Part shown: piece after piece, positions 6,713-26,770 of the stretch
How the letters are laid out: each line of letters begins with the position of its first letter
Position numbering within the stretch: the first letter of the stretch is position 1
Assembly: GCA_002104985.1 (NCBI GenBank)
Contig: MCGO01000022.1
Coordinates: 62,001-126,000 of the forward strand
DNA length: 64,000 nt
Source of the DNA: Rhizoclosmatium globosum
Taxonomy: Eukaryota > Chytridiomycota > Chytridiomycetes > Chytridiales > Chytriomycetaceae
Direction: 5' to 3'
Notes under the pieces: model-generated
Seen by the model: the letters and a program-made list of their open reading frames with translations, nothing else
Databases searched by the model: none
Told to the model about the DNA's origin: nothing
Translations under genes and position numbers: made by a program

Positions 6713-9225
6713 TTATTGTGATGGAATCGGGGTTTCCTGTCTGCTGAATTTCAATCTGTAACTGGGCAACATGGTTTCTCGCACGCGGTTTCCAACAAAG
6801 AGGCATGCACAGAGCCATTCCAGCTTTCCAGGCAGTTTCGGCGATTGTTTTTCAACCAATTGAGGGAACGATGTTGTCAGAAACGTGAGAGCGCTTTCAT
6901 GGTTTGTGACAGAGCGGGTATCTTGCGGTGGCAACTGCTGAACATCGACAATAGAGCCGAGAATCGTTTTCTTGATACTCCATTGGTTATTGACATGAGT
7001 GAATCGTTTGGTGGCGTACTTTAAGTCCAGCCCATATGCAATTTCTGGTTCCTCTGACACACCCAGGCAAACAGACTGATCCTCTTGGAACGCGCTCTGT
7101 CGAGTCAAGAAAACTGACAAGTCTCCTGCCTTTTCCGCTGCCTCCGCGCAAAGTCGTTTCCACACAGTTTCCAAATTTTCCTTGTAATCTGCCACAATCT
7201 CACTTTGATATGGCAGAAGTCCCAGCATTCCATAAGCTCGATCTTGCTCAACGTACATCGCCGCCCCTTCATCAAGTCACATATCTGTGCCAAACTCAAC
7301 TTGCGCTCACCCAGACAACTACCCATAGCGGCTGCCCCAAGTTGCCCAATATCCTCAACGCATGTTGTCCACCCTCACTATCCAACCCATCACGATACGC
7401 TCTCCACGCCCAGAACAACCTTTCCTCATCCAAACTCAACCACCGCCCTCGATGAAACACAATTCTCCTCGCAACAACATCTCCTGTAAAGTACATACCC
7501 GCTCATACCACTCAGTCCTGCCTCCCTGAATCTCATCATCCACATACGCAGCAACAACCTCTGCCCTTCCAAAACATCCCCCATTCGTCCATACATCTTT
7601 ACCCTCTCCTCCACACCTCCATCCCCTTGATGTATACAAAAAACATCAACCCAACAATATCCAACCCCAACCCTCTCACAAATCGCAACCAAAGCCCTAA
7701 TCACTTCTCCGCCACCCTCGCCTCCCAAACTCCACCACCCGCTTCCCCATCCCTCACCTTCACCGTCACAAACCCATCACCTCTCCCCCCTTCCACCCGC
7801 CACCACCATAACTCAAAGCAACATACCCACCCCCACTCGCATCCCACCGCGACAAAACCTCTCCCCTCCCACCACTCTCCAAAACCTCCAAAACCTCACG
7901 CACAGAGACAACTCGAACGGGCCCAACCTCTTGCACAGGCGTCTCACTTATAGTTCCGATCGTGTTTGTAGAGCTGTTGAGTTTCCGCGTGGAGAGTAAG
8001 GAGGTTCTTGACGCGGATGCTGATTTCGCGCGGATTGTTGATGTGGTTGAGGTGGAGGGAGGGAGGTGGGGGAGGGGGTGTTTTGGACCTGCGCCTAGTT
8101 TTGATTTGTTAATCGGAGGTTCGGGAGGTTTAAAAATGGTTACTTCGTGCGCGAGCGTAGGATTGGGTCGGGAGCTGTTGGTTGGGTATAGGAGCTAAGG
8201 ATTCTTTTGAGGTTGATTTTATGCTTTTTGAGGAGCCACGGTTGAAGGGTTGAGGTTGTTGGATTGGAGGTGCAGTTATTGAATCTGTTTTGAAGAGAGA
8301 CTATATAAAGATGGTGCAAGTTTGATAAGGAAAAGTACCTCGTGAAGAACGGATGTTTTGATGTTGTTGCTGCTGCTGTGTTTGTTGAGGTAGGTTTATG
8401 GGAGCAAGTGATTCCTTGGATCCCACTATAAAAACGTATTTCAGCTCCAAATGATACACAAAAATCAAACTCACTTCTCGAAGCTCGCTTTACCAACATA
8501 GTACTACCCCCCGTTCCCTGCGTATACTTGCGATCCAGTGCAGGCGCCAACGATTCTTTCGATCCCACTGAAGCAACATATTTAAAACAAATCCTGAATT
8601 AACAAACGAACTAACTCCTTGAACTTTTCTTGGCATCGCACTGCTCTGTCCGTGGGTATACTTTCGATCCAACGCAGGTGCAAGACTCTCGTTCGAATCC
8701 TTCTGCGCCACAGTTGTTGTTATTCGTCGAGCCAATCCAACTACACCGAACCCAGGTGTAGCTGATTGTTGCTGAATACTAGGCGCCAGGGATTCCTTTG
8801 ATGAAGCTGGGAAATGGTTAAGGCTTGAAAATGCCTTGACTGAAAACTACTCAACTCTTACGACTCTTTGTAGGAAATCGATTCAAAGTAGCTGTGGAAG
8901 ATGTATTGGGGTTGTTGGGTAATCGAGGGAATGAGTCTTTTGTGGAAGCTATTACAAAAAAGCTCCGAATCAGCTTCATATTACGCTTGAATAAACAAAT
9001 TACATAACGTGGTACGAGAAGCTGTTCTTGACTTCAGCGCTGTTCTAGATCCATCTACCATGCTCATTGTATCAGCGCCACACTCAAAAGTAAAAACTCA
9101 CAATTGGACTGCATTTTAGTTCCGTCTGCACCACTACTGGGAACTGTAGATTCGTTTCGTAGAGAAGGAAGGGCGGGAACGTTCGAGTCTGAAGGGTCGT
9201 CGTCATGTGGGTTGTATGGTTCCAT
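6713..9225 (-). CDS. HET-domain protein with exon-borne SKESLAP repeats
   Basis: Heterokaryon-incompatibility (HET) domain protein, a family tied to non-self recognition and cell death in filamentous fungi. The HET core is read across frames: YVALSYGGGGW (about 7820), YCWVDVFCIHQ (about 7650), VVAAYVDDEIQ and WYERVCTLQEMLLRGELCFI (7560-7445), and AMYVEQDRAYGMLGLLPYQ (7265-7200). At least four single-base losses lie inside it (near 7570, 7460, 7330, 7265). The N-terminal half is Ser/Pro/Gln-rich and split by several short introns. It repeats an SKESLAP motif four or five times: near 8795, 8690, 8550, 8410 and 8200. Two copies extend to ESLAPALDRKYT. The ATG at 9225 begins MEPYNPHDDDPSDS; stop at 6713. 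Exact exon joins are uncertain. Confidence 0.75.
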
Positions 9226-9505
9226 TTTTGGAAAGACTCTGAATACCTATGGCAAGATGAATTCGGAATAAGTTAATTTATCAGAAAAAGATCAGAACAT
9301 CATCTTATATTGAGTGATGAGATAATACAATGGCTTTATAGCAAGTGGAGATCTGTTAAACGTAGTGTGTACACTTTAACACTTCGATAGGCCGCTACTT
9401 ACGACACCATTCACATTTTTCGTATCTAATTTGTCACAATTACAAATTCATTTCTTTTAAATGTTTAGATTTCTGGCTTGTTCAATCAATCATTTAAATT
9501 GAGTC
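9226..9505. promoter_or_regulatory. Divergent promoter region between HET gene and M28 gene
   Basis: This 280-nt AT-rich gap separates the start of the HET gene (9225, minus) from the ATG at 9506 that I assign to the interrupted M28 gene (plus). It would serve both promoters. No specific factor site is recognised. Confidence 0.4.
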
Positions 9506-9507
9506 AT

Positions 9508-9516
9508 GGAATTGGG
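9508..9516. repeat. Target-site duplication, left copy
   Basis: GGAATTGGG here recurs at 15952-15960. It lies directly after the AT of an ATG that restores the M28 reading frame. The duplication may be 8 bp (GGAATTGG) or 9 bp. Confidence 0.75.
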
Positions 9517-9545
9517 GGAGTAGTGGGAGGAGGTGAGGTGGAAAA
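9517..9545 (+). repeat. Left terminal inverted repeat of the transposon
   Basis: Contains TGGGA then GGTGAGGTGG, matching the complement of 15923-15951 with the same spacing from the duplicated target site. Confidence 0.65.
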
Positions 9546-9607
9546 AATCTGTTTTGTGAGAGATGGTGAGAGATGGGAGAGATGGGAGAGATGAAACAGA
9601 TTTTTCC
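9540..9607. other. Long hairpin in the left end of the transposon
   Basis: GGAAAAAATCTGTTT (9540-9554) is complementary to AAACAGATTTTTCC (9594-9607), with a one-base bulge. The loop is made of GAGAGATGG-type repeats. It may be a transposase binding structure or a promoter element just ahead of the ATG at 9666. Confidence 0.6.
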
Positions 9608-9665
9608 AGAGAACAGATGCTGATTGGCCAGCTTCATCCCCGAATAAGAAGAGCCGCCAACCGCA

Positions 9666-12600
9666 ATGGCACCACCACCAACACGGCTTCGGACACCCGA
9701 CGAAGAAGCCATCGCAGATAGGACCGTATTTGACGAAACCGACGAGGCACTCGAAGCAGAGAGTGCCGACATTGACCGCCTCAACGGCTACGCAGTCGCC
9801 GGCGTCGAACTGGCATCGGGTTCAGGCGCCACCCCCACTCCAGCCACGACGAAGAAGGGCAACAACGCCTTCTTCAATCCAAACCCGGGCTACGTTCCGA
9901 ATACCTCACAGGCAAAACTGTCTTGGGCATCACCAGAACAGCTCGCGTTTGCTGAGTCCGTCGCCCTCCGAGTCACTGGCAATAAAAAGACTAAGCTTGA
10001 ACCATTGAAGCGTCCAAAGGTTCGTGTCAAAGTGTTTTGTAACTGTGTTGTAATCTTCAAACTTATAGCGCGACTGGACATGGGAAGTTGATGGCACGTA
10101 TCCAACAACATCAAAAGGAGAGAAGATTCCAAACTTTAAGGCTCCTCAGCTCGCTGACTATTGCTACAAGAAGATTGTCGTTTTCTCGCCTCTGGAGCAG
10201 TTTCCCGAAGTATGTTCGACGTGTCTCGTTAATCCACTCTGATTTGACCTAATACGAACATAGGACTGTGCTAATGTAAAATGTCCTTCTTGTGGCAAAG
10301 CCAATACTTGGAATAAGGCGGGTTTATCGAATAACTTTCGAAATGCATTTGGTGTCTCCGATCGTGAGATGGTTATTGGCCGGAAGTACAAATGCGAACG
10401 CAATAATGGCTGCAATAAAGTTTTTAACGCGTGGAATCCGAGTTTCTTTGCCGCATTGCCAGACATTGCTCAAAATGGTTTGTCTCGTTCTTGACACGAT
10501 TTAGCTAACTTTCTATGATATAGATTTCCCATATCTCACCAATTTGGATGAGAATAATACAGCTATGTTCATTCATAAAGACCTTGTTGACAAAATTCTG
10601 TCGGAGCACCATCAAATCGGATATGCTGGTCTTTATAAATCTATCCGGCGACCCTATTTCCACTCCTTTCTTCAGAAAATGGTTTCGTTTACCGCTGCGC
10701 TGAAAGCATTTAAAGATCGTGGATTTGTACCAGTACCTGGAAGGCTGACACAACCAACAATATCTTCATTTGCTGCCGCGAAATCACCCGGAGAACCCCT
10801 TGCAGGCCGGCCAATACTTGACGAAAATATTCCCACTCTTCGGGATTACTGTATTAATCCCCACTGCTATAATGGTGGATGGCCAACGTATTCCTTTTTG
10901 AGGGATTTTGTCATCAAGCAACATCAAAAAATCATTCAACCGATTTGTGATCGCGTTCAGCGGAATGTGACCGGAAAGACTCTTGCATATGACGTGCACA
11001 AAAAGATGACCAAGTATGCCCAGGTGGAGGGAAACCAGCCGTTCGCTGGTTTGGGAGCCACGATGACGGAAACGAAAGAAGTACCTGTGTGGGGACTATT
11101 GGCCCGTGAAGCTGAAGAGGATGTCAAAGAAATGGTCGGAGACTATCCACAAAGATTAGAGGCAAAGGACATACGTCTCTCTGCCATGTTTCTTGATAAC
11201 TGCTGTTCCTTTGCTCGGATATTTAGAGATATTTTTGGCGACCAGTCTCTTGGAGTGTTTTTAGACCGAGCACACATTATGTTTCGATATTCAGACCTCG
11301 TTTCGACCGATCATCCACAGCGAGAAACCTTCCTCAAAGAACTGTCACATTGCTTCGCATTCAAGGTTGCCCTTTTGGTTATTATGTTGTGTTAGCAGCT
11401 TACCGTCTTGTTTAGGAACAAGTGCCAGCAGATATGCGCTTTCCAGTCCGTACAAATAAGGATCGAAACTTTGTCACTCGCTCGTATGAAGCTGCGGAAG
11501 TGGAGCAGAAGTTATCGCATATGATTGAAACTCTATCCACCAATGTGCCACCTTTCTTTGACCACAGCGCAATGCTAGCCATGCATGAAAACCAGCTGAT
11601 TCATGTCACAAAAGGTTGTGTTCTATTTGGAGCCAAGAGTCGAAATGATGAGTATTGCATTCGTCGTGAAGGAAGTGTCGGGTTCCTCACGCCTCAAGGC
11701 ACTTCGTCGCTTGAAAATATGTTTCGGTGGATTATGGCTGGGAATTCAAAAGTTCCTGTCGGACCTGGAACTACTATCATGCGGCTGGAACTGGCGTTTC
11801 TCAATGTCAATGTCACTTCTGGGTCACAAATTCGAGGCGATAAGTTTCTTCAACAATCTGGAGGCGCATCAATCCGCTTCGACTTTATCGATTATATTCT
11901 GAATGAACAACGCTCGATGTTTCCTCTCCTTGCGGCAAACTTTCCTCTCTGGCCTGGCGAATTCGGGAAACCAATTCCTAAAGTTTCAGCTTCGCTGGAT
12001 CCAAAAAAAATAGAGTTGATTGGAACGGGAGTGATTCCGGAAGTTGTTCGAGCATTGGCTCCAAAATCAGCACTCCCTCGTGCAGTACCCAAGGCTTCTC
12101 AGGTTACAGAGTTTACAAGTTCAGACTTGCTTTATGAAGGTGTGGTTGAGTGTTGAGTTTGCCTTTTTCTCAACTTTTCTTTCAGAGCGAGCAGTTAGTA
12201 TCTCGGCAGAGAGTACCCAAGCCCAATTTGGAGACCGGGATCGGCCATTGCTGTGTCATCGCACATCTGCCACGGAATTTCTCAGCGACAATAACATCGA
12301 ACATGTTCTGCTGAGTGGGCTGACTGACAACGAAAAGGTGCTGGCTGACACACTGTTAAGCCTAACAAAACTATCTTCGAAATCGAATGACACTGCATTT
12401 CAACGTATGTTCCTTCTTTGGAATGCAAACAGCGATGTCATCGATTCTGTTGATATCCGAATCCTGTCACATTGGACAATACTGAAGACCATAGTTAAGA
12501 ATCGTGAAAAGGCAGCTACATATCGTGCGGCTATAGCATCTCGTCCCGTGGTGCCTATGCAATACACCCCACCCTTGAGCAACACTGGTCCTCCGATTCC

Positions 12601-13100
12601 ATCTCATTCCCCTATGTTGCACAATTCTCATTCTGGTGGTCAATTTATTCAACATCCTCTTCTGCGGCCGCCAATGTTTTCAAATAGCAATTTTAATCAG
12701 TATCCGCACGACTTTTCAAACCCGTTATTGGATCCGCCAAGGACAGTCTTCACTCGTATTATTCCTTCTCAACCTGTCAATGCACGAAAGAAACCAACTT
12801 GCAGCCGTTGCTCAAAGTTAACATCAGGACATAATATATCCTTTTGTGCTGATGGTGTTCGAGCGGTTGATTCCGCGAAACATTTGTTCGGAGTTGTATA
12901 TGATTCACAGTGGTTTGGTAAGTAGTGAAAACTTTCATATCATCCCTAACTAGACTGTAGAAACTGTTTACTTTCCGTACCTTGCTGGAAAAGGTAAAGA
13001 GGCTCAGCTTGTTCAGCAATGTTTGAAAGTACTCAAGGAAAAACAACCCGATATCTACTCATCTCTTGAAAATAACCCCGCAGTCAATGTTTTTCTTTAA
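9666..13100 (+). CDS. DUF6729-like transposase with C-terminal zinc knuckle
   Basis: Seven exons (9666-10019, 10069-10209, 10264-10477, 10524-11365, 11416-12139, 12186-12917, 12961-13100) sum to 3147 nt, an exact 1048 codons plus stop, with no frame break. After a Pro/Thr-rich N-terminus there is a cysteine-rich module with CPSCGK and CERNNGC flanking NAWNP, as I recall for DUF6729-type proteins. A likely RNase H-like core follows, with acidic residues in MFLDNCCSFARIF and GVFLDRAHIMFRY. The last exons hold a proline-rich linker and a CSRCSKLTSGHNISFC zinc knuckle like that in Mutator-type transposases. It presumably cuts and joins the element ends and would explain the 8-9 bp target duplication. 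Family name from memory; the catalytic triad is inferred. Alternative: an accessory DNA-binding protein. Confidence 0.7.
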
Positions 13101-13925
13101 AATAATTGAATAAAATTGATTTATAGCTGTAAATGTTGAAGAATAGAAGCTCTTTTGAATTCCGAAGAAGATTCGGATATCAACGATGCCAATTGACGGT
13201 GTATATTGGATTATTCTCTCTCGGATTTTTGTTAATACGCATTAAAAGATGACGTTCGTAAAGTTTCATGTGGATTCCATTTCCTTTCATTGAGTAGTAT
13301 GAGTTGGTGCAAATCGGTGTCCCAAAAGGTCTTTCCATCGAAATTCTCAGAGCACAAGTAAGTTGTTCGAAATCCTTCAATTAGTGTATACAAGAAAGGA
13401 TTTGGCGTTATGACGTTTCCTTCCAGTTCTAGAGAGCATGTAAGATCGACCTAGAACACATTTTTCATTGTACACTGCAACAAACAAACTCAACAAGCCT
13501 CAAACTCCAGGTACACACTTTTTAATCAATTTACTATGAAATCGCGGTGGTCCCAGTCTGTATATCTTTGAGATATGATGTGAACTATTTTCGAGCCCTT
13601 CCGCGTTCAAAGGCCATAAAAGCGCGGTATGAAAATAAACCCCAGCGCGAAACAATTTTAACAGTTATAAACGTGTGCTCTGGAAGTTTGGATTTGTTTC
13701 ACGAAGATTCGCGTTCTGTGGAGCGCTGTGGACCTTTCATGACGTAAAACATGATACAAGCTTTGACTTTGCCAATACATGCCCGCGTAAATTACCTAAA
13801 GCGTAACTAACTCAATTCTTTTGACATTTGCTGATGTTTGATGCGTCAAATCATTCGGATTACATCGGTTTGGTAGTTGGTTTCGGGTTCAGTTGAATCC
13901 GTCGTAGCCACGGCGTTCTACCAGT

Positions 13926-13939
13926 TGCAGTATACTGCA
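13926..13939. other. Perfect 14-bp palindrome, candidate recombinase site
   Basis: TGCAGTATACTGCA is its own reverse complement, and CTGCAGTATA repeats directly after it. Its centre is TA. Small serine recombinases act on short dyads with a 2-bp centre, and such sites usually lie next to the resolvase gene, which starts about 560 nt downstream. The functional link is inference. Confidence 0.35.
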
Positions 13940-14297
13940 GTATAATGATCCTAATATTTTGTTTATTCAAAATACAAACGGGAATTGAAAGTGTCGTTGC
14001 CTTAACAATGTTCGATGATTTATAAAAATTAAAATAAAAGATTCGCGATCGAAATGGAATGGTAAAACAAAGCGAAATGAACTTAACGAAATAACTTTGA
14101 TACGGAAATGAAACGTAAAGAGAGAGGTCCCGAGCCTGAAGCTAGTCAAAATAAATCATCTCCAGTCTCTTCTTCTTTGATCCACTTCTTCTTCGATATA
14201 AAGAGAACTTACTCAATCTTCACATAGAATGTGTGCTTAAAGCAAAGAAGTGGAATCGTGAGAAGTACAGAAGTAATAGCTGAAGCAATGTGAAACA

Positions 14298-14335
14298 CGC
14301 AAACTGACGGTGAGAGAACCGTCATCACCAGTTTG
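14298..14335. other. Compound inverted repeat upstream of the serine recombinase
   Basis: Arms CAAACTG...CAGTTTG enclose ACGGT...ACCGT with a GAGAGA loop. It could be a recombination site, an operator or a transcript hairpin. It lies 160 nt before the recombinase ATG. Confidence 0.45.
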
Positions 14336-14494
14336 TACTTTCATTTGTAATGTTTTCTATTAATAGATTGTTTCGATTAATATTCGACCGATGTCAGAGC
14401 GATGTAGTGAGTGATTGTTCTTTTCTGTCTTTCTTGTTCTTTTCTGAAAAACGACGCGTCTCGCTGAAGTTCCTGAGACTCACGCTGCATCGAA

Positions 14495-15739
14495 ATGAAA
14501 GCCAAGTCGAAGTACGTGTTTATTTAGTCCCATCTAAGCGCTTACTCTTTCTTACTCAACAGAGGATCTCGTGGACTGCGCAAACAACAACCTCTTTCCA
14601 TAGTTTCTGACTCCATCAATAAAACAAACTCGGAGATTGAATCAAGCGTTGCATCTGTATTTGAGTCTCTCTCTGGTCGCAATGACGCTCTTCCTGTGGT
14701 TAAGAAGTTGCGATTTTTAATTTACACGCGTCAATCTGCTCAAACTGCGCCGGACTCACTGGGAAGCTCTGTCGTACAGCAAGTTACTATGGTTAAGGAT
14801 ATTTTGGAGAAAGCAGGCTTTGATTATCATTCGGAGCATTTTAATGACATTGCGTCTGGGGCAGATCAAGAACGTCGTGGATTGAGACAAGCTATGGATA
14901 CTGTGGAAAACGACGAATCAATTGACGGATTAGTGGTTCATACACTATGTCGTCTCTCTCGAAACGCGTTGCACGCGGCGCTCATTGTTGACAATTTGGT
15001 TTCGAAAGGAAAACACTTTCTGGAAGCCATCAACATTAGCTGCCGGCTATTTGGTCCCTCTGTTCCCGTCGAAATTGCGGTATGTTCAAGTTTTGTGTTC
15101 ATATGTTTGCTAAATCCTTGTTTCAAGCAAAGTCGTTGGACTCCATTTCTAATGCATGCAGCTGCCGCTCAATTTGAGCGCCAGATCTCTCAAAGTCGAT
15201 CACGCGCGCATATTTTGAGCCGAAAACTGGAGAATAAGGTTGTTTCAAATGTATCGGCATATGGTTGGAAATTTGCGGCATGCAATCAGTTCGGTGAATG
15301 TCTCGCAAGTCATTCCATCAGTTCTTTATACTCACAGGGAGCTATTAAATCATCCATGAATCTCGTGATATGTCAAGAGGAAATTGAGCAAGCGTTATGG
15401 GCGATTGACGTGTGTCAGGAACAATACTTGGTCACAAACACCATCCCGAAGCCGGCGGCTTTATTTGATCACGCAGTGGCTCAAAACGTGTACAAAAATA
15501 CCCGCTCTGTTGTTTACGGTATGCTGCCTTGGTTTAAACAATGCCTTACTGATCGAGAAAACACAATAGAAACGCGCCCTCAACAGATTAGAAACTTCTA
15601 CCACAATGTTAAAAGCTTTATTAAGCAATCAACACTTCGAAACGAGCTACCGTCTCTGCTTGAGAGATCAATCGGAGTAATTCGGGCCAAGCTTGACGAG
15701 AGCAGATCTTGTGTTGACAATACTTTGGAATCGGGCTAG
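14495..15739 (+). CDS. Serine recombinase (resolvase-type catalytic domain)
   Basis: Three exons (14495-14511, 14563-15079, 15128-15739) sum to 1146 nt, exactly 381 codons plus stop. The first exon holds only five and two-thirds codons. The resolvase fold begins near residue 54: LRFLIYTRQSAQTAPDSLG has the nucleophile serine (about residue 64) in Y-x-R-x-S, DIASGADQERRGL matches the family turn, and TLCRLSRNA gives the catalytic arginines (about 136 and 139). The E-helix region reads AAAAQFERQISQSRSRAH. About 190 C-terminal residues are not recognised and lack an obvious large-serine-recombinase zinc ribbon. Eukaryotic serine recombinases are rare. Within a DDE-type element its likely job is resolution of cointegrates, as in Tn3; alternatively it moves the element itself. 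Confidence 0.8.
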
Positions 15740-15951
15740 TTTTTAGGATGGATGATGTGTTGTGACAGATGACGTTTGGTCAGGTTTAGTCATCAATTGG
15801 GTTTCATACATCTCTCCCAATTCTTCTTCTTATTGGACAATTAATATTATTACTCACTCTTTAGCGTTTTTGTAGGGCTCTGTTGGCGCCAGAACGTCCA
15901 CCTCACCGAACGTTTTTCGGCGATTTCACCTCACCGATTCCCAAAAAAATC
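15740..15951. repeat. Right end of the transposon with inverted terminal repeat and subterminal repeats
   Basis: CACCTCACCGA occurs at 15899-15909 and 15927-15937. Each copy is followed by a small hairpin: CCGAACGTTTTTCGG and CCGATTCCCAAAAAAATCGG. The complement of the last 28 bases matches the left end in spacing and core motif. Confidence 0.6.
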
Positions 15952-15960
15952 GGAATTGGG
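15952..15960. repeat. Target-site duplication, right copy
   Basis: GGAATTGGG, identical to 9508-9516. It is followed in frame by the body of the M28 gene. Confidence 0.75.
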
Positions 15961-17904
15961 CACACTCAACACACTCAAAGCTGCTGATCTTGAGGAAGGT
16001 GTTCCCGCACCCACCCAGGCAACCAAGGCTCTCAAACCAGGTGTTCCTGCGTCCGAAGCAATCCGTATTGCCTTCTTGTTCTTCCTGATCATCATTTTGA
16101 GTACTGCTTCACCTATCTTCCGCGAGGGACACAAGACTACGGCCCTTTCCTTTGCCGAAGCAAGAGGAACGAACGACTTTCCTGGTCTCGATGCATACGC
16201 CCAATTGACAAACATTGCCCAACAGCCACATCCATATGGATCCATTGACAACACGCGCGTGTTTGAGTACCTTCTGAACACCCTCCAAGTGTACAAGAAC
16301 TCTTCCACCGCAGACATGCAGATCATGGTCCAGGACACTCACTATTTCAAGCAGATCCTTGTCTTGTTCCCAGGAACTACAAACTCAACCGTCCTCTTCT
16401 CCGCCCACTTTGACTCAGTGCCAGGCTCTCCAGGCGCAAGTGACGACGGCGCAGCGATCACAGTCCTCCTCCAACTTGCTCGTCTCAAGTCTCTCTCTCA
16501 AACAAAGTCAAGAAACTCATTCCTACTCTTTTTCAATAACGGTGAAGAAATTGGGCTTGCTGGGTCGGAAGCCCTGCTCAACAGCAAAAACTATACTGCT
16601 CTGGTTAGCAACATTAAAGTGTTCGCGAATTTTGAAGGTGGTGGAACGGGTGGAAAGCCGATTCTGTTTCGTACAACTTCGTCTCAATTGACTCAAGCGT
16701 ATGCGGACTTGCCGTACCCACACATGTCCTCATTTGGAGGAGATTTGTTGGGGCTATTGGGTAGTTATACGGACTACCAAAATTATGTGAAGTAAGTCTC
16801 TCGATTATCATAAAACGACCACTCAGCTAACCCAAAACTTCATCACAGGGCTGGAATCCCAGGCTTCGACGTTGCATACTACGAAAACCGACGATTCTAC
16901 CACACCCCCGACGATTCCCTCAACAACATCAGCCCCTCCGACGTCCAAGCCATGGGCTCCAACGCCCTCGCCCTCTCCAAGACCCTTCTCAACGCCGAAT
17001 GGATCGACAACCTAAAGATCGAATCCAAAAACGCATTTTATGACCACTTTGGCGGATACTACCCTGTCCTCATATCCCCCACGTTCCAATGGTCCCTTGC
17101 ATGCGTTCTCATACTCTTTTTCATTGCGTCGCTCGTATACGGTTACTTTTACTTGTACGTCCCTTTCAAAATCCCAGATTCACTCGTGGATCCATCCATC
17201 AAAAGCAAGAAAACATACTTTGGCGCACACCTTCTTATTTTCGCATTGTATATTGTTATGGTCTGTTTCGCCGTTCTCACAGCTGTACTCATAGCCAGTA
17301 TTATTCCTTGGGTCGTCAGCGCTAAATCTGTGAAGTCAACTGGTGCGTCATGGTTAATGGTCTCTATCTCCCTTGTCTCGACTCTCCTTGGTGCTTGGTA
17401 TGTGAGTGGCAAATGGCAGAAACATTACACGGACAAAGGGGAAGATGGTCCATTGAGTCAAGATTTTGGGTTGTACACCTTCATAGGAGTCCTGTTTGCT
17501 TGTCTCCTCGGCATTTTGTTTACAGTGTTCAACTTCCCTATCATGTATTTACTTGCGTTTGGGGCCGTCGCGCGCGGGGTTTGTGGTGCCATTTTGAGTG
17601 TGAAGCGGAAGGGTGCGGAAGTTCCGGCTGTGTATGAGATGAATCCTGTTGTTACAAGTATTGTGTTTGGTACGGTGTTTGTGGTTGTGACGTTTTATCC
17701 GTTGTTGATGCTTACAGACTTTTTGATGGTGATGGCTCGGCTGAGTGTTGGAACGACGTACTTTGGGTTGATATTGGTTTTGATTGCGTTCCCGCTTAGT
17801 GGAGCTATTCTTTCGGTTGTTGTTCATATCAAAAGTGATTTGGGACGGAAGGTGCTGTTGTATTCTTCGTTGGGGGTTGTTACTGTTCTCACTGTTGGTT
17901 TCGT

Positions 17905-18045
17905 TGTGCTCTGCTTTATTTGAGTGTCTTTAGTGGTATAGTTGACTTCAAAAGTCAATCAATTTATTTCTCTTCTAATTATTTCCGCTTCTTCTCATCT
18001 CAACACGTGCAATCGCATCTTCATGTGCTCTGCTTTATTTGAGTG
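17905..18045 (+). repeat. 22-bp direct repeat left by tandem duplication
   Basis: TGTGCTCTGCTTTATTTGAG plus TG occurs at 17905-17926, covering the stop codon of the second M28 gene, and again at 18024-18045 in the gap before the third. It looks like the scar of the tandem duplication that made the pair. Confidence 0.6.
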
Positions 18046-18157
18046 CATTTTTTGGTTGTGGCGATGCAAATTTTTATCAAAAGGCACTCAATGCGCCAAC
18101 AGACCGAGCCAGCCTATAAAATCACAAAAAGGGGACATTGTTGATACATATCCAATA

Positions 18158-20122
18158 ATGAATCCAAAAGATCCCAATGATCTTGAAGAAGGAACTCAAG
18201 CCGTTAATGTATCCTCCCCTACACCAACACAACACTACCAAAGGCAGAAATCATCTACATTGTAGGCGTTTTCATGCTTGCACTCCTCCTCGGTGTCACG
18301 GAAGGCTTCTTCCGGATCACGCACAAAACCACAGCCCTCTCCTTCACCGACGCTCTCGCCCAAAATGATTTCCCCGGCTTCGACGCCTACACCCAACTCA
18401 CCCAAATCGCCCAAAAGCCACACCCATCCGGCTCCCCCGAAAACGACCGCATCTTCACCTACCTCCTCACAACCCTCCAAGAATACCAAAACACCTCCAA
18501 ATCCGAAATGCAAGTAATAATCCACGATAACAAAATCTACCAACCTTTCAAACAACTCCTCGTCTATTTCCCTGGAATTACAAACTCAACAGTCCTCTTT
18601 TCCGCCCACTTTGATTCTGTACCCGTATCCCCAGGCGCTTCCGACGACGGCGCCGCAATCACAGTCCTCCTCCAACTCGCCCGAATCTACTCCACGAAAA
18701 CCTCCTCCAAATCCCGAAACTCATTCCTTCTATTCTTCAACAACGCCGAAGAAGTCGGCCTAGTCGGATCCTACGCTCTCCTGAACGACCCAACACTAAC
18801 CCCATACGTCAAGAACATTAAAGTCTTCGCGAATTTCGAGGGAGGTGGGGCAGGTGGGAAACCGATTCTGTTTCGTACAACGTCGTCCCAATTGACTCAA
18901 GCGTATGCGGACTTGCCGTACCCACACATGTCGAGTTTTGGTGGGGACTTGTTGGATGTTTTGGGGAGTAGAACGGATTATCAACGTTATGTGAAGTGAG
19001 TTCTTTTAAATTTGTCTTTTGTTTTTGTTGCAGAGTTACTTAAGTTTTGAGTGGAATAGGGCTGGGATCCCAGGTTTTGATGTGGCGTATTATGAGAACA
19101 GGAGGTTTTACCATACTCCAGAGGATTCACTTGATAATATCAGTCCAGAAGATGTTCAGTATATGGGGTCTAATGCGCTTGCTCTTTCAAGAAACCTGTT
19201 GAATGCAACATGGATTGATGACCTCAAGATTGAGTCCAAGAATGCTTTTTATGATCATTTCGGTGGATATTCTCCAGTTATTATATCGAGTGCTATGCAG
19301 ATGGGATTTGTGGTTGTTATTGCTGTTGGTCTTGTTGTTTCATTGGGTGTGGGATACTTTTTCGTTTACGTTCCGTTCCAAGTTCCACCAAGCTCTACCA
19401 ACAAACCCATGTACTTTTTCACTAGGTTGGCTGTCGATGGAGGATACACAGTTGCGGCGTGTGTGGCAGGCTTTGTTGTCGCTATTGTCGTTTCTGCAAT
19501 TCCATGGGGAGTTGGTATCAAAATCTCCAAAGCCACTAATGCGTCCTGGTTAATGGTTTCACTTTGTTTTATTGGCAGTTTGATTGGGGCTTGGTTCGTC
19601 GCTGGATGGTGGCAGTCAAGGCAAACAAGTGATGACGAAAAGAAAGGTCCAGCAATTCAAGATTCGGGATTGCAAGTATATATCGGTCTTGTGGTCGCAT
19701 GTATTCTTGCGTTGGTTTTTACAGCATTGAATTTGCCGGCTTTGTACTTGTTGGCGTTGGGTGCAATTGCCCGAATGGTTGTTGTGGCAATTCTGAAAAT
19801 CAAGACGAGAGGATCCAAAGTTCCACTTGTGTATGAAATCTCTCCTGTTGGTTCTGTGGTAATGTTTGGAAGCGTTCTTGCAGTTGTGACATTCTATCCC
19901 TTACTGATGTTAACTGATTTCTTGTTGGTGATGTCAAGACACACTGTTGGCACGTACTTTTTCGCCGCAATTGTTTTGTTGACCGTCATGCCGATTGGAG
20001 GGGCGTTGCTATCAGTGTTAGTTCATGTGAAGAGTGTGCAAGGAAGAAGAATTATCCTTCTAGGTTCCATAGCACTTGTAACCGTTTTCACGCTTTTATT
20101 TGTTGTACTTTGTTATGTTTAG
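18158..20122 (+). CDS. M28-type vacuolar membrane protease, third copy
   Basis: Full-length Pff1-like zinc metalloprotease: cytosolic N-terminus (MNPKDPNDLEEGTQ), first membrane segment, M28 catalytic domain, then about eight membrane segments; expected at the vacuolar membrane. Zinc-site motifs are SAHFDS, GASDDGA, NNAEEVGL, NFEGGG and FYHTPEDS. The intron at 18996-19059 is at the same codon as in the second copy. Near 18230 the frame slips from PTPTQH to LPKAEIIYIVGVF; exons sum to 1901 nt, one short of a multiple of three, so one base is missing. It lies 234 nt behind the second copy on the same strand and is very similar to it around the active site (QLTQAYADLPYPHMSSFGGD is identical). 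Confidence 0.88.
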
Positions 20123-20198
20123 AGAATGGATAGAACCTCGGTAGAAAGTAGAAGAAAGAAGAAATAAGAAACCGTTTTTATTTTTTTCTTGACATCCA

Positions 20199-23100
20199 AT
20201 GGACACCACCAACACCAACACCAACACCGACATCAAAAAGAAGCGACGAGGAAAGCGCGGTGGAGCAGCAGTCAAGCGCAGCACCGACGCCCTTGAAGAG
20301 AAGACCGAAACACTCTTCACTCTCGATCGCAGCGGTGCTTCCCCCGAGCCAAACCAACTCGAACCAGAACAAGAACCAGAACCAGAACCACTCAATTCAG
20401 AACAACAATCATCCGAAAAAGAAAAAGAAAAAGAAAAAGAAAAGAAGAAACGACGTGGTAAACGCGGTGGCGCAGCGGCAAAAGAAAGGGAAAAGAAATC
20501 AGACGACAACGACGAGGCCTACGCTTCAATCAACGTGGTGCAAGATGACTCACCTCAATTGGAAGATGAGGTCGATGAAGGGGCCCAGGTCAGCAAGGAC
20601 GACAAGTGGGCTGCTCGAATGGAGCGGAAGAAGAAGTACGCTGAGGCTGGAATCACTGACCCAAATGCATACGATCACATTGCTGCCACACACGGAACTT
20701 ATAGAGATTCAGACAAGCTCTTGCCCCACAGAGATCCAAACTTGCCTGATCAACCTGAACTGGGCCGTGTCGATCCTGATGTCCAGGTCTATTTTATGTC
20801 GGTCGAAAAGATGCTGGATGAGCAGGAGTTTGAGACAGATGAAGGTATGGTTTCAGTCTATGAGAAAGTGGCGTGCTTAAACCATGTTGGCTTAGACCGA
20901 ATCTTGTTTGTTCAAAACGTGTACCGTGAAGTTGGTGCCAACGACGTCAAACTTGCTGCCGACAGTGAATGCTCTCGAGTCCTTGAGAAACTGATTCGAC
21001 TTTCGTCAGATGTTCAAGTTCGACGATTGATGAGAAGTTTCACGGGAATGTTAGTTTCACACAAGGTTCATTCAATCTTCCTAACTTTACGTTCGATAGG
21101 TACTCTGAACTTTTCCGTCACCGATTCGCATCTCATGTGGCTCAAACGCTTCTTTCCCTTGTTGCCGACATTGTTGAACGCGAGGTATCCTTATTCTCTT
21201 TCGCAGCTGTAGCCTTTCAAAGTCTAACTATATCACATTCAGCAAATCCATGGTCCCGCCCCGGAACCAGAAGATGAAGATCCAGTTGAAGGCGCACCAG
21301 ATCTTGGTCCCCTTCCCTCCATGGAATCCCTCTTCACATCACTCTGTGACGAACTCTCCAACCAATGGACAAGTCTGATGAGTGACCATGGGGCTCTCAC
21401 CTCGTTCGAGCAGCTCTCAACGTCGCGTCTGGCGAATCATTACTCCCTCCAAAGTCTTCCTCCCTCCGCTCCAAAAAATCTACTAAATACAACGCCAAAA
21501 ACAACAACGCCGCTCCAGCTGGTCCAGCTGCGAAAACAGCTGACAGGAAAACAGCAGCGGGAATTTCGAAGAAGCGGAAAGTTCCTCCATCGTTCCAACA
21601 AGTGCTCGAAAGTATTAGTCAGAGTGTGTTGGACAGTTTGAGCGAGTATGAGATTCGTAGCTTTGCGGGTCATGCTGTGGCGAACCCTGTCTTGCAGATT
21701 TTGGTTTCGATTAAGCCGGCGGGGCAAGGTCTCATTCGTTCGATTATGGAAATTGATTCTGACAAGGGATATGCGTTTATGGGGTCTCTCATTACTGATA
21801 CTGTTGGATCGCATTTGGTTGAAAAAATCCTTGTGGTATGTTTTCTTTCCTTTCCGATAATTGTTATTTCACTGTGTACTTATCATGTTATGTTTTCAAC
21901 ACAGAATGCGAGTCCTAAGGATTTCCACACCTTGTACACTCGTCACTTCAAAGGAAACTTGACATCTCTCGCATCCCACCCAATCGCCAACTTTGTCATC
22001 CAACACCTAATACAAAACACCCGAAACGGCCTCCAACTCCGCGTCCTCATGGACGAACTCCTCGGCCCTGACGGAACCGGGATGGAAAAGCTCTTCTTCC
22101 GCAACCGCCAAGGAGTCGTCATCAAAATCCTCGAAGCCTGTGTCCGCCACACTGCAGACTGTCAACCCCAAGTCCTCACCTCCTTCACAAACGCTTTTCA
22201 CGCCACTACCCCAGACCAACAAAAACTCCTCACCCCTCTCGTTCTCACCCAGCAAACCTACGAAGACTATAATACCGCCCCCGGAAAATTCGACTACCAC
22301 GGCGCAACAATGCTCGAACACCTCCTCAACTTCCAAGAACCCTCCGCCAAACTCTTTATAAACAGTTTCCTCTCCCTCCCCGCATCAGAAACCTTCAAAT
22401 GGCTCACAACGCCACTCGGGTCCCGCGTATACGAACAAGTCCTCCGCTCTCAGTCAACGCCACTCCCCGCCAAGAAAAAAATCTTACATGGGTTAACGGG
22501 CCACTTTGCAACCCTCGCCTGCGACAAATACGCATCTCACATCGTAGACGCTGCGTGGGCCGTGTCCGACATTGACGCCAAGGAACGTATCGCGGCTGAA
22601 CTCGCGAAATCAAAGGCACAGCTTGAATCCAGCTTTACGGGGAAATTCGTGCTCAAGAACTGCCGCGTTGAGAGCTTTAGAAGGGAAGGAAGGGATGTTT
22701 GGGCGGAGAAGGTTGCAGGTGTGGATCGAAAGAGGGCTATGTTTAAAGAGTTTGAGGATATTTTGGAGGATGAGGGTGATGAGGAGGTTGTTGTTGAGGG
22801 GGAGAAAGAGGGTAAGAAGGTTAGTAAAGCTGCGGAGAAGGCTGCGAAGGAGGAGGATTCGCTTTGGAGTACCGGCAAATATGATCAGACTATGGCTGCG
22901 CTTGGGTTCACGGCAGATTCTAAGAAGGGGAAGAAGAAGAGTGGGGACTTGGTAAGTGAATACTGTCTCAACTGTTGTATCACTTCCGCTGAACTTAACG
23001 TAATCGTAGCTCTTGGACGACGAAGATGAAACACCCAAGAAAAAGAAGGACTCTAAACGTGCCAGAGAGGATGATGAAGTTGATGGTAAAGAGGCAAAGA

Positions 23101-23201
23101 AGGTTGCTGCTGCTGAAGATGATATGGAAGATGTGTTTGCTGCTTTGGCCGCGACAACAAAAGGAGGTGATTCTAAGAAGAAAGTGAAGAAGAGTAAATA
23201 A
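20199..23201 (+). CDS. NOP9: Nop9-like Pumilio-repeat nucleolar protein
   Basis: Nucleolar RNA-binding protein needed for 18S rRNA maturation in yeast. Five exons (20199-21049, 21100-21184, 21243-21835, 21905-22951, 23010-23201). The N-terminus holds two copies of KKRRGKRGGAA; Puf-type helical repeats run from SECSRVLEKL through RFASHVAQTLL, GHAVANPVLQILV, GSHLVEKIL, HPIANFVIQHLI, GATMLEHLLNFQ, GSRVYEQVL, YASHIVDAAW to GKFVLKNCRVE. The C-terminus is acidic and lysine-rich (KKKKDSKRAREDDE). Near 21388 the frame slips one base, from SLMSD to WGSHLVRAALNVASGE; the exon sum of 2768 nt is one short of a multiple of three. About 922 aa when corrected. Puf-family assignment is firm, Nop9 in particular is likely. 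Confidence 0.82.
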
Positions 23202-23273
23202 ATATGCTCATGCCCGTTGTTATTTCCGAGCCGCCGCTGATATATATGGAAGTAAATGATGGAGTAACAACAT

Positions 23274-24484
23274 TTAATAAATACTGTCCTTATAATAACC
23301 ATTCTCCATTAGCCAAACGACAACTTTATGATGTCCGGCTTGATTCAGAGTGTACAATCCATCTGTTGACCACCTACGCCCCAATTTTATGACCAACCCA
23401 CTTCTTTTCCACCATTTTAACACCTCCAAATGCCCATTCTCAACCGCTCCAAGCATAGCGCGTTCTGTATAAACCATTTTCAACCCACTCTGAACCCACC
23501 ACTCCAAAACCCTAACGTTCCGTTCGTGCTTGCCTTGTCCATCGAATCAGCCGTATACTTGAGTGGAAGTGCACTCGCAACCCACCAATCCAATACATTT
23601 ACATATCCATTCGCGCTTGCCATATCCAAAGCTTGTGTCGACCACCGAAACTCATGTTTACTTTCTCCCGTACACCATTCAAGCACATCAACATGCCCAT
23701 TCGCACTCGCAACATCAATTTCGATATCAGAAACATTGAATTCCAAGCCGCTTCCACTCCAAACTTTCATCACATCGACATGCCCACCTTCCGCAGCTGC
23801 CACCATAACCCCATCAACACCAAGCCAATCTTTATACTTTATCGGCAAACCCGAATCCAACCACCACTGTATAACGTCAACATGCCCGTTCCGACACGCT
23901 TCCAAAACGGATTTTTCAGTGTATTCAAGAGAGAGATTGCTTTCCTTCCACCATTGCAGCAACTCCACTTGTCCCTTCGCACTTGCATTGTCGATGGAAG
24001 CTTCTGGGATGAATGGGATTGATTTCCGGCGTAACCGGTCGATTCGGAGTGCTGTGGCGATTTGAAACAGTTGTTTTGGAGGGATGATGAGGTATGAGAT
24101 TATGTCTTCGATGAGTTCGACTGGGAGGTGTGGAATTGGTGTGTTTGAGAAGTGTTGTTGTGATTGTGGTGTGGATATGGATATGGTGGAAGGGGTTGGG
24201 GGATCTGTTGGCTGGAAGAGTGACCATTGAGATGGCTTAGTTTCTGTTGCTGGTGTGTTGGCATCTCGAAGGTGCATTTGTATCAGTGAGTATTGAACGG
24301 ATACGGTGTTGTTGAAATCCAGAAAGTATGAGTTCCAAGGCGATGTGGGGGATGTTTGAGGCATTATGACATTATGAGCTTGGGGTGACTTCCAGCTTAG
24401 TATGGACCATCTTGATCGCAAGAGTGTGTGAGATTCGGTTGTATTTGAATGTTGCCCATATGGCATGTGGGATGTTTGTGTCAT
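23274..24484 (-). CDS. F-box-like ankyrin-repeat protein
   Basis: The N-terminal 110 residues are Ser/Thr/Pro-rich, followed by an F-box-like segment LPVELIEDIISYLIIPPKQ and then about seven degenerate ankyrin units of the type NGHVDVLEWW (34-36 aa each). Near 23510 the frame slips one base between STNG and NVRVLEWWVQSGLK. The ATG is at 24484; a later Met (MHLRDANTP) could be the true start. Function unknown; F-box plus repeats suggests a substrate receptor of an SCF ubiquitin ligase. Confidence 0.7.
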
Positions 24485-24930
24485 CAAATGTTTCAGATTG
24501 CAATTTCGAAGGGTGGCTCACCAAGTCAATAACCTGCCATTATTTCAAAGATGTTAAATAACTGCAGGTAATCGGACCTTAATTTTTAACTGATATTAGG
24601 ATGTAAGGAAGCTCTTTAAGTCTCTACTAATTATGTCAATAGTATCCTCTATGAAAGAGTTTATGAAAACAAGTCTCATTCTTTGCTATATAAATAATAT
24701 GGAATTGAAGAGGTATGTAGAACTATTTGGTCATTTTCTCTTTTCGAACCAACAACGGTCAGCCCACAACACCCCAACACACTACAGCGATCCTCCATCG
24801 TCACCATCTCAACTATAACTGCAAAATAATCTCGTATGACCGTCAGCAACCTTAAACACACGACTGGAGCCTCCTCAGACCTCCTTCATCAAACCACCCT
24901 CAAAACCATCAAACTAAACCATTCAAACAG
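24485..24930. promoter_or_regulatory. Divergent intergenic region, ankyrin gene / NDUFB2-like gene
   Basis: AT-rich gap between divergent genes; it should contain both promoters and the 5' UTR of the complex I subunit. No gene is seen. Confidence 0.35.
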
Positions 24931-25337
24931 ATGGGAGGACACCACGGCGAGCCATTCAAAACGCACGGCCCCTTCGTTGCACCACGAGTCAGCGGAACTC
25001 TCTCGACAAAGGTCCTGATGGCTGGCGTCTGGTTCTTCCTCTTCTACAGAATGAAGGTCGACGGTCCTCACCACTTTGTGAGTATTTAACTTGTTGCGAA
25101 ATATGCGCACACTGTGGATTAGTACTCGAATGAAGTGGATAGAATGACTGGAGGAGACGTAAAAATTAGGACTCCATAACGACAAACTATGAACTGCCAT
25201 GGAAGTAACAATATCTGATCGTCTTTATTCAATAGTTGAAGCACCACTCATGGGAGGACCCCAAGATGCTTGCCTACTTGGAAAAGGTGGACAAGAAGTA
25301 CGGAACCCACTATGCAACTGACAACATGCACCACTAA
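24931..25337 (+). CDS. NDUFB2-like (AGGG) subunit of mitochondrial complex I
   Basis: Small single-pass accessory subunit of NADH:ubiquinone oxidoreductase in the inner mitochondrial membrane. Exons 24931-25077 and 25236-25337 give exactly 82 codons plus stop. The protein starts MGGHHGEPFKTHGPF, has a membrane segment VLMAGVWFFLFYRMK, then DGPHHF and KHHSWEDP. This matches the pattern I recall for plant and fungal NDUFB2 (WFW-LYR-K-DGP...HPWE). The start was chosen on this match; an ATG at 24837 is in another frame. The intron is 158 nt, long for this window. Confidence 0.72.
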
Positions 25338-25524
25338 ATACCGAAAGAGTCGTCTGCCTTCGTTTGAATGTTCTTTTGTTGAGACTTAATTGTGATGGTT
25401 TTGGGGGAGTCTGGGGCAACTTGGTCTATTTCCTGCAACACTGTGAAGTCGAGTGGAAGAGTATGCGCGAATAAAGGCTCTATTTACCCCGATACTTAAC
25501 GTGTAAGAAACGTGTACAAAAAGA

Positions 25525-26502
25525 ATGTCAGAATCGGTGTTACAAACAAGATGGCCACGCGAGCTGATTCACCACGTCTTTCGCTACATCCACCCTGGAA
25601 GTGTCCTGAAATACTCTCGGCTGTGTCGCTGGATGCGTATATGTCTCTCTGATCCACACTTTGCCAGTTTGAACCTACAGTGTTTCGATGAGACATCGAT
25701 TGACTTTGATCAACTGTGGCTCCACTGGCCTCCCGCCTACCAAGAAGGATACGCACGAAAGAGACAGAAGCATTTGCAGGAGGAAGCCCTGCGTAACATG
25801 GGCTGTTCGTTCAACTTTGACGTGCGATGGACAGTGCAAACAATTGATTCGGTGCCAATTCCACCGGCAATCGGTTTCTTTGAAGACCTGACGCATTTGA
25901 CACTCGAAAATACGTTTGGATTTATTGGTGTGATTCCCGATGGAGTCGCAGCTCTGCAATCACTTCGACTCCTTTCAATCACCAAGATGTTGGACCCGCA
26001 GCCCTTCCCAATTGGCATCTGCCAACTCACAAATCTCACACATCTGTCGCTTGTACATTGCAGTTTGATGGGCACCCTTCCCGTCGAAATCACAAAGCTG
26101 ACATCTCTTGTTTCGCTCAATATTGGTCACAATGCCCTTTATGGAACATTGCCATCAGATATTGGACAATTACTACGGCTTCATAATTTATCACTGGAAG
26201 ATAATCAGTTTTCTGGCCCTTTGCCTGCTTCTCTTTTTGATCTTGCAGAGTTGGAAGTCCTTATCCTTGATTCCAACAAGTTCACAGGCTCGTTATCACC
26301 GGATATTCAGAAATTAAGCTCCTTAGAATTCCTATTTATTCGAAACAACTCATTCTCTGGTTCATTTCCTCGCGAGATCTTGAATTTGACCGAACTTCGT
26401 GAAGTATGCTGGTGCGATAGCGGGCTGAATGCCGCGATCCCAGTCTCAGAAGTGAATCCAAGACTCGCAGTCATTTTAATTGACGGCCAGTACAATAAAT
26501 AG
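25525..26502 (+). CDS. F-box-like leucine-rich-repeat protein (copy 1)
   Basis: Intronless, 325 aa. An F-box-like N-terminus (WPRELIHHVFRYIHPGSVLKYSRLC) precedes about seven plant-type LRRs, for example LTSLVSLNIGHNALYGTLPSDI and LAELEVLILDSNKFTGSLSPDI (consensus LxxLxxLxLxxNxFxGxLPxxI). No signal peptide or membrane segment. It is a paralogue of the gene at 30355; the two flank the TIR-NACHT gene on the same strand. Role unknown: SCF-type receptor or partner of the neighbouring NLR-like protein are both possible. Confidence 0.82.
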   Translation: MSESVLQTRWPRELIHHVFRYIHPGSVLKYSRLCRWMRICLSDPHFASLNLQCFDETSIDFDQLWLHWPPAYQEGYARKRQKHLQEEALRNMGCSFNFDVRWTVQTIDSVPIPPAIGFFEDLTHLTLENTFGFIGVIPDGVAALQSLRLLSITKMLDPQPFPIGICQLTNLTHLSLVHCSLMGTLPVEITKLTSLVSLNIGHNALYGTLPSDIGQLLRLHNLSLEDNQFSGPLPASLFDLAELEVLILDSNKFTGSLSPDIQKLSSLEFLFIRNNSFSGSFPREILNLTELREVCWCDSGLNAAIPVSEVNPRLAVILIDGQYNK

Positions 26503-26770
26503 TTTATCAAATATAACTTTGTACAAATTGGTTTTGGTGAGTATGCCTTATGCAACCCTCTTCTCGACCTCGCCGAAACTTTGCATAAACGGTTAAACGA
26601 GGATGGGCGATCACAACACTTGCGCGCGTGAAGGCCTCCATAGGGGCGTATGAATCTGCGTTAAACTTACACTCAAAAACAAGGACTCACTTCCGATCCT
26701 GGATTCCTGAGTACGGTCAACCTTACCATTTTCCTTGCATAGATACTTTGAGTTATCCGATCTTGTCAAT

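Follow-up and report, generated by a model that had tools for sequence, protein, structure and literature searches.

Insertion of the element into an M28 peptidase gene

The question raised by this locus is what separates the start codon of an M28 peptidase gene of Rhizoclosmatium globosum from the remainder of its reading frame, and how the intervening DNA moves. The stretch analysed (64,000 nt, hereafter the window) lies on contig C135 (595,267 bp) of the 56.9-Mb genome. Analysis showed that the intervening DNA is a DNA transposon with inverted ends and a fixed-length 8-bp target-site duplication, carrying two genes, open reading frame 1 (ORF1) for a probable transposase and ORF2 for a serine recombinase. 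The insertion and the anatomy of the element are observed directly, and from them we infer a role for the recombinase: the element is probably a low-copy two-enzyme Rhizoclosmatium transposon, in which ORF1 would act as a DDE-type transposase and ORF2 would resolve joint or dimeric products at an internal site. The features of the insertion are as follows.

9506..9515, + strand: start of the M28 peptidase gene, 10 nt (ATG GAA TTG G)
9508..9515, no strand: left target-site duplication GGAATTGG, its 8-bp length set by the other copies
9516..15951, + strand: whole element, 6,436 bp, boundaries from the repeat positions and other copies
9516..9540, + strand: left terminal inverted repeat, imperfect, GGTGAGGTG occupying element positions 17-25
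15899..15951, - strand: right end, with the inverted repeat and two GGTGAGGTG copies
15952..15959, no strand: right target-site duplication GGAATTGG
15960..16791, + strand: remainder of M28 exon 1
16849..17923, + strand: M28 exon 2

The insertion point lies 10 nt into the gene. Joining the flanks gave an in-frame sequence of 1,917 nt including the stop codon (638 amino acids, aa), and the recomputed length agreed with the open frame of 1917 nt, a multiple of three, given in the preliminary description of this DNA. The joined protein was identical at 633 of 638 residues, including all of the first 26, to the 638-aa protein P0004 of Rhizoclosmatium sp. JEL0117. The same description had held that orthologues with a different N-terminus would speak against an insertion; P0004 begins MELGTLNTLK. 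Because P0004 is uninterrupted and has this N-terminus, the R. globosum gene was whole before the insertion and begins at this ATG. The first ATG of the interrupted gene now yields MELGE-stop, and downstream of the in-frame stop at 15842 the right end of the element contains no in-frame ATG. The window copy landed behind the start codon and severs the gene from it. Other M28 matches occur in the vicinity on C135, which may cushion the loss.

Boundaries of the element and other copies in the genome

A 9-nt repeat, GGAATTGGG, is present at 9508-9516 and 15952-15960. The duplication reported earlier was thus present, and its length, left at 8-9 bp, was settled at 8 bp by the C17 copy (GAATTTTT) and the C151 dimer (AGCAAAAT). 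Since other copies fix the duplication at 8 bp, the element occupies 9516-15951 and measures exactly 6,436 bp, in line with the earlier figure of about 6436 bp. Its inverted ends matched at 18 of the first 30 positions, a score reached by 3 of 20,000 random window pairs, and contained the TGGGA (positions 9-13) and GGTGAGGTG (positions 17-25 from each end) described before, though they are imperfect overall; a second GGTGAGGTG is found 45-53 from the right end. The ends of the C151 relative matched each other at 16 of 30 positions (a value without random control), with a single exact GGTGAGGTG, 45-53 from the right end. A search of the window element for long terminal direct repeats found none.

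The left and right ends of the window and C151 copies served as genome queries, and the resulting counts are lower bounds. At least four insertion places were found (the window on C135, C151, C17 and C388), and an 8-bp duplication was present at 3/3 places with both ends (window, C17 and C151). At the fourth, C388, the right part of the element alone was present and the left end was not found. The right flank of the C388 copy recurs inverted on the element's other side.

The C17 copy (21,707-23,661, 1,955 bp) is internally deleted, its first 8 nt being fused to the equivalent of 14005-15951; it is flanked by the duplication GAATTTTT and retains ORF2. Over 1,947 nt it differed from the window copy by five substitutions and two single-base indels. 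The unoccupied counterpart of its site (C1:300518-301112) showed 95% identity across all 600 joined bases and a single GAATTTTT.

The C151 copy (15086-28029) is a relative of the window element in the form of a head-to-tail dimer. The two units (15086-21555 and 21560-28029) have 6,470 nt each, are identical at every base and are separated by a CAAA spacer, while a single AGCAAAAT duplication surrounds the pair. The C151 insertion point also has an unoccupied counterpart, in a C268 repeat that matches it over about 80 surrounding bases and contains one AGCAAATT. Multimers of the element therefore arise, and the dimer gives no indication of which enzyme made it. Assembler duplication alone is not expected to produce the CAAA junction. 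The spacer equals the middle four bases of the duplication, and no mechanism predicting this was found.

The preliminary description had proposed a transposon caught directly behind the start codon of a protease gene, and had named further copies with duplications and an empty site as ways to check it. The proposal was borne out by the uninterrupted orthologue, by the related ends and 8-bp duplications of C17 and C151, and by the unoccupied counterparts of these two sites; a search of the R. globosum genome for an unoccupied allele of the site in the window gave none.

Target sites

At each of the three insertions with both ends, the duplication lies near the centre of a small inverted repeat made up by the target flanks (TTGAGT/ACTCAA, ATTTTCCCT/AGGGAAAAT and TGGGG/CCCCA). 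In the same order, the p values were 0.057, 0.0017 and 0.057 against 6,000 random positions (sum, 0.0005) and 0.048, 0/1,027 and 0.042 against 1,027 local positions (sum, 0.0003), for a pattern noticed after the fact at three sites. The window site was examined as 9490-9515 joined to 15960-15975.

Coding content of the element

The coding content, on which the preliminary description was silent, is what makes the element unusual. The two genes of the window copy are arranged as follows.

9666..13100, + strand: ORF1, 1,048 aa, probable transposase; DUF6729-like zinc domain, and a second cysteine-rich motif near the C-terminus
9666-10019, 10069-10209, 10264-10477, 10524-11365, 11416-12139, 12186-12917, 12961-13100, + strand: the 7 exons of ORF1
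14495..15739, + strand: ORF2, serine recombinase, 381 aa, 3 exons (14495-14511, 14563-15079, 15128-15739), PF00239, YTRQS at residues 60-64

DDE transposases characteristically produce target duplications of fixed length, which serine recombinases do not; for this reason the cutting and joining of the ends is most likely the work of ORF1, a predicted DDE-type transposase. A protein search in which 7,996 candidates sharing exact words were scored found ORF1 in at least two Rhizoclosmatium proteins. ORF1 agreed at 807 of 809 residues with the partial protein P0002 of Rhizoclosmatium hyalinum (from a 6,264-bp contig) and was 65% identical to P0003 from C151. The acidic residues of its candidate catalytic motifs were invariant between the two ORF1 lineages. 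Stretches of at least 60 residues in R. hyalinum P0009 that match the neighbouring host genes at C135:80274-85198 were 91-99% identical in six of seven cases and 68% in one. The two differences in 809 residues, set against more diverged host genes, are suggestive of a possible recent spread between the two species, by horizontal transfer to or from R. hyalinum.

ORF2 is identical to the public protein P0001. It matched PF00239 over residues 58-215 at an expectation value (E) of 2.7e-15 (57.2 bits against a cut-off of 23.3), and its catalytic motifs are intact, with Y-T-R-x-S and R-L-S-R aligning to the TP901-1 integrase (3bvp). The nearest solved chains by sequence were the TP901-1 integrase (E 1.2e-4) and TnpX (E 0.0069). 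Among 2,747 candidates sharing exact words, ORF2 matched itself alone, and a scan of viral contigs with a few peptide patterns returned no relative. ORF2, entire or for the most part, was found in the window, C151, C17 and C388 copies, and degraded pieces of it on C118 and C279. The latter two contigs are about 97% identical over long stretches, as though two haplotypes had been assembled.

Selection was estimated by the Nei-Gojobori method as the ratio of nonsynonymous to synonymous substitution rates (dN/dS). Over the 250 of 381 ORF2 codons in frame in all three copies, dN/dS was 0.129 for window-C151, 0.112 for window-C388 and 0.152 for C151-C388; over 519 of 1,048 ORF1 codons it was 0.100 for window-C151. 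In the window comparisons dS was near saturation (1.6-2.1), so that the C151-C388 ratio, with a dS of 0.17, is the firmer value. The compared stretches of both genes are under purifying selection, and such ratios are not expected in a useless passenger.

Conserved noncoding blocks between the genes

The intergenic DNA of the window and C151 elements aligns in parts only. The aligned parts include two blocks that are candidate recombination sites.

13360..13461, + strand: conserved noncoding block 1, candidate res-like site, 76% over 102 nt against C151
13370..13403, + strand: palindrome AAATCCTT-18-AAGGATTT in block 1, with a palindrome at the aligned place in C151 (18960-18997)
13426..13457, + strand: second block-1 palindrome GTTCTAG-18-CTAGAAC, not kept in C151
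14281..14354, + strand: conserved noncoding block 2, matching C151 in 56 of 74 aligned columns and situated about 140 bp upstream of ORF2
14300-14335: block-2 palindrome CAAACTG-22-CAGTTTG, with none such listed for C151

Block 1 belongs to a larger 63% match with C151 over 298 columns, and the C151 palindrome at its aligned place is CGAAATC-24-GATTTCG. A search of the intergenic region for a res-like site in three parts showed one palindrome common to the two lineages and no three-part res.

Proposed mechanism and alternative explanations

In the proposed mechanism, ORF1, as a DUF6729-like zinc protein, would bind the ends and join them to staggered target DNA. ORF2 would convert joint or dimeric products to single copies at a site inside the element, by analogy with TnpR at res in Tn3 and Tn21; the likeliest such site is one or other of the conserved intergenic blocks with their palindromes. 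That ORF2 resolves such products at an internal site, or else handles circles, is the most likely assignment. A eukaryotic counterpart of Tn3 in the full sense, with a replicative joint-molecule route, its own serine resolvase acting at an internal res-like palindrome, and targeting of the centres of small inverted repeats, is a tentative extension that we consider rather unlikely.

Several results weigh against the two-enzyme mechanism. A Pfam scan of the entire ORF1 protein gave no family at E up to 1. When the scan was confined to the zinc region, DUF6729 was matched at E 2e-5 with 24.7 bits, under the Pfam cut-off of 27; the isolated domains of the two lineages scored 24.7 and 24.5 bits and whole P0003 scored 21.5 (E 2e-5 to 1.9e-4), so that neither lineage reached the gathering threshold. 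An ORF1 profile of 2 sequences, bearing on a possible RNase H fold, retrieved nothing from the solved structures at E up to 10, and the structure model of ORF1 (P0003 with P0002) was unusable, with a mean predicted local distance difference test (pLDDT) score of 30.0. The candidate catalytic motifs (LAYDVHKK, FLDNCC, FLDRAH and TSSLEN) are ones that we take to be catalytic by resemblance. The model of ORF2 (P0001 alone) was likewise unusable (mean pLDDT 38.4). The C151 ORF2 has stops where the second intron of the window copy aligns and a frame change near the C-terminus, which we read as putative introns, and no public protein was found for it. The deletion in the C17 copy removed ORF1 and block 1 and spared block 2 and ORF2, and the C151 copy indicates that an unresolved dimer can persist. 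When palindromes with arms of at least 7 nt were counted, with 30 shuffles as control, the window region gave 5 (4 distinct), where shuffles averaged 2.3, and C151 gave 3, where they averaged 1.9; one alone was shared between the two lineages. As palindromes of this size are not rare in shuffles, the argument lies in the shared position and not in the count.

The C151 dimer is also the starting point for a different and distinctly less probable account, according to which ORF2 makes or uses circles, an excised circle having recombined with a resident copy, so that tandem dimers are built rather than resolved. The two head-to-tail copies are joined by CAAA, with one duplication around the pair; since this 4-nt spacer is not the full 8-bp duplication, it does not have the look of plain unequal crossing-over between duplications. 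Such a spacer resembles the junctions of excised circles of IS3-type elements. Circle integration has been discussed for multimers of KolobokP (PMC9587614). The dimer is a single case, however, and replication slippage, homologous recombination with a circle, or end joining would suffice without ORF2. A little less probable again is a passenger role for ORF2, which would then be a serine recombinase that the element has captured and that serves a cellular or regulatory function unconnected with movement. At least eight genomic DUF6729 matches lie on other contigs than the at least ten PF00239 matches (lower bounds from a search that did not report ORF1 itself), and related transposons may accordingly do without ORF2. 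Against a passenger role, selection on the compared stretches of ORF2 is about as strong as on ORF1, ORF2 or most of it is kept in all four copies, and a distant family on C143 and C105 also has a recombinase relative downstream of pieces that look transposase-like by their motifs, with homology to ORF1 not shown.

That the serine recombinase is itself the transposase, with ORF1 as an accessory, would follow the precedent of IS607, whose transposases are serine recombinases and whose recombinases have relatives in elements of eukaryotes and giant viruses (PMC3627910). IS607-like elements are, however, described as being without inverted ends or duplications (PMC3627910), while 8-bp duplications were found at all three two-ended insertions and inverted ends in the window and C151 copies, which makes this explanation very improbable and led us to reject membership of the element among IS607-like elements. 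An 8-9 nt repeat would by itself be weak evidence against a chance repeat or an assembly artefact, but given independent copies that share both ends, an intact orthologue, and unoccupied counterparts of two insertion sites, the probability of either is negligible.

Other serine-recombinase loci and local features

A distant serine-recombinase relative (about 30% identity) was found at C143:24463-30747 and C105:1-5390, downstream of and on the same strand as pieces with a C-terminal zinc knuckle that we take to be transposase-like; this is perhaps a second family of the same design. Seven pieces (5 from the transposase side and 2 from the recombinase) were aligned, and homology of the C143 pieces to ORF1 is not claimed: the best match to ORF1, in the C-terminal zinc knuckle, had an hhalign P of 0.0018 (probability 15%), and the next a P of 0.044. 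Another serine-recombinase relative, with an ORF2-like C-terminus, is located at C46:25538-26449 amid leucine-rich-repeat reading frames; the C151 ORF1 matched this locus at chance level only (E 0.63). Within the window, positions 7001-8000 showed an extreme guanine-cytosine skew (-0.525 over this 1-kb stretch).

Comparison with known systems

Eukaryotic DDE transposons are usually thought to be single-enzyme, cut-and-paste elements, and the pairing of a transposase with a serine recombinase is familiar from bacterial transposons. The window element resembles Tn3 and Tn21 (TnpA, TnpR and res) in having a large transposase gene and a serine recombinase gene in one element. The Tn3 duplication is 5 bp, unlike the 8 bp found here; the window element further differs in its weak inverted ends, its intron-containing fungal genes, the lack of a Tn3 transposase match for ORF1 in Pfam (E up to 1) and the lack of a demonstrable three-part res. 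Membership of the Tn3 family was rejected on the missing Tn3-type transposase domain and the 8-bp duplication. As in Tn501, the two genes are colinear and the palindromic candidate sites lie upstream of the recombinase gene; in Tn501 itself, res is upstream of tnpR, which is colinear with tnpA (PMC7157771).

ORF1 shares with the DUF6729 (PF20499) proteins, whose function is unknown, a zinc domain matched at E 2e-5 in both lineages; it differs from them in a score under the cut-off, and the genomic DUF6729 matches lie on contigs without serine-recombinase matches. The 8-bp duplication is also known from hAT, P and Zisupton elements, but the entire ORF1 protein has no Pfam match at E up to 1. 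The IS607-like and Fanzor2 elements are comparable in placing a serine recombinase inside a eukaryotic mobile element, but no TnpB-like domain was found by Pfam in ORF1 or ORF2. KolobokP is likewise a DDD/E transposon with a second DNA-cutting enzyme, head-to-tail multimers and duplications at the outer ends; its second enzyme, however, is a His-Me finger nuclease, and its units share long direct repeats (PMC9587614).

No eukaryotic DDE transposon with a serine recombinase was present in the literature searched (titles and abstract openings, among the matches listed), and a term search of a 2025 study of TET/JBP-carrying fungal transposons (PMC12730594) gave no occurrence of recombinase, resolvase or chytrid in the text covered. 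A serine recombinase kept under selection beside a transposase suggests that a two-step route like that of Tn3, or a handling of circles or dimers, arose in eukaryotes.

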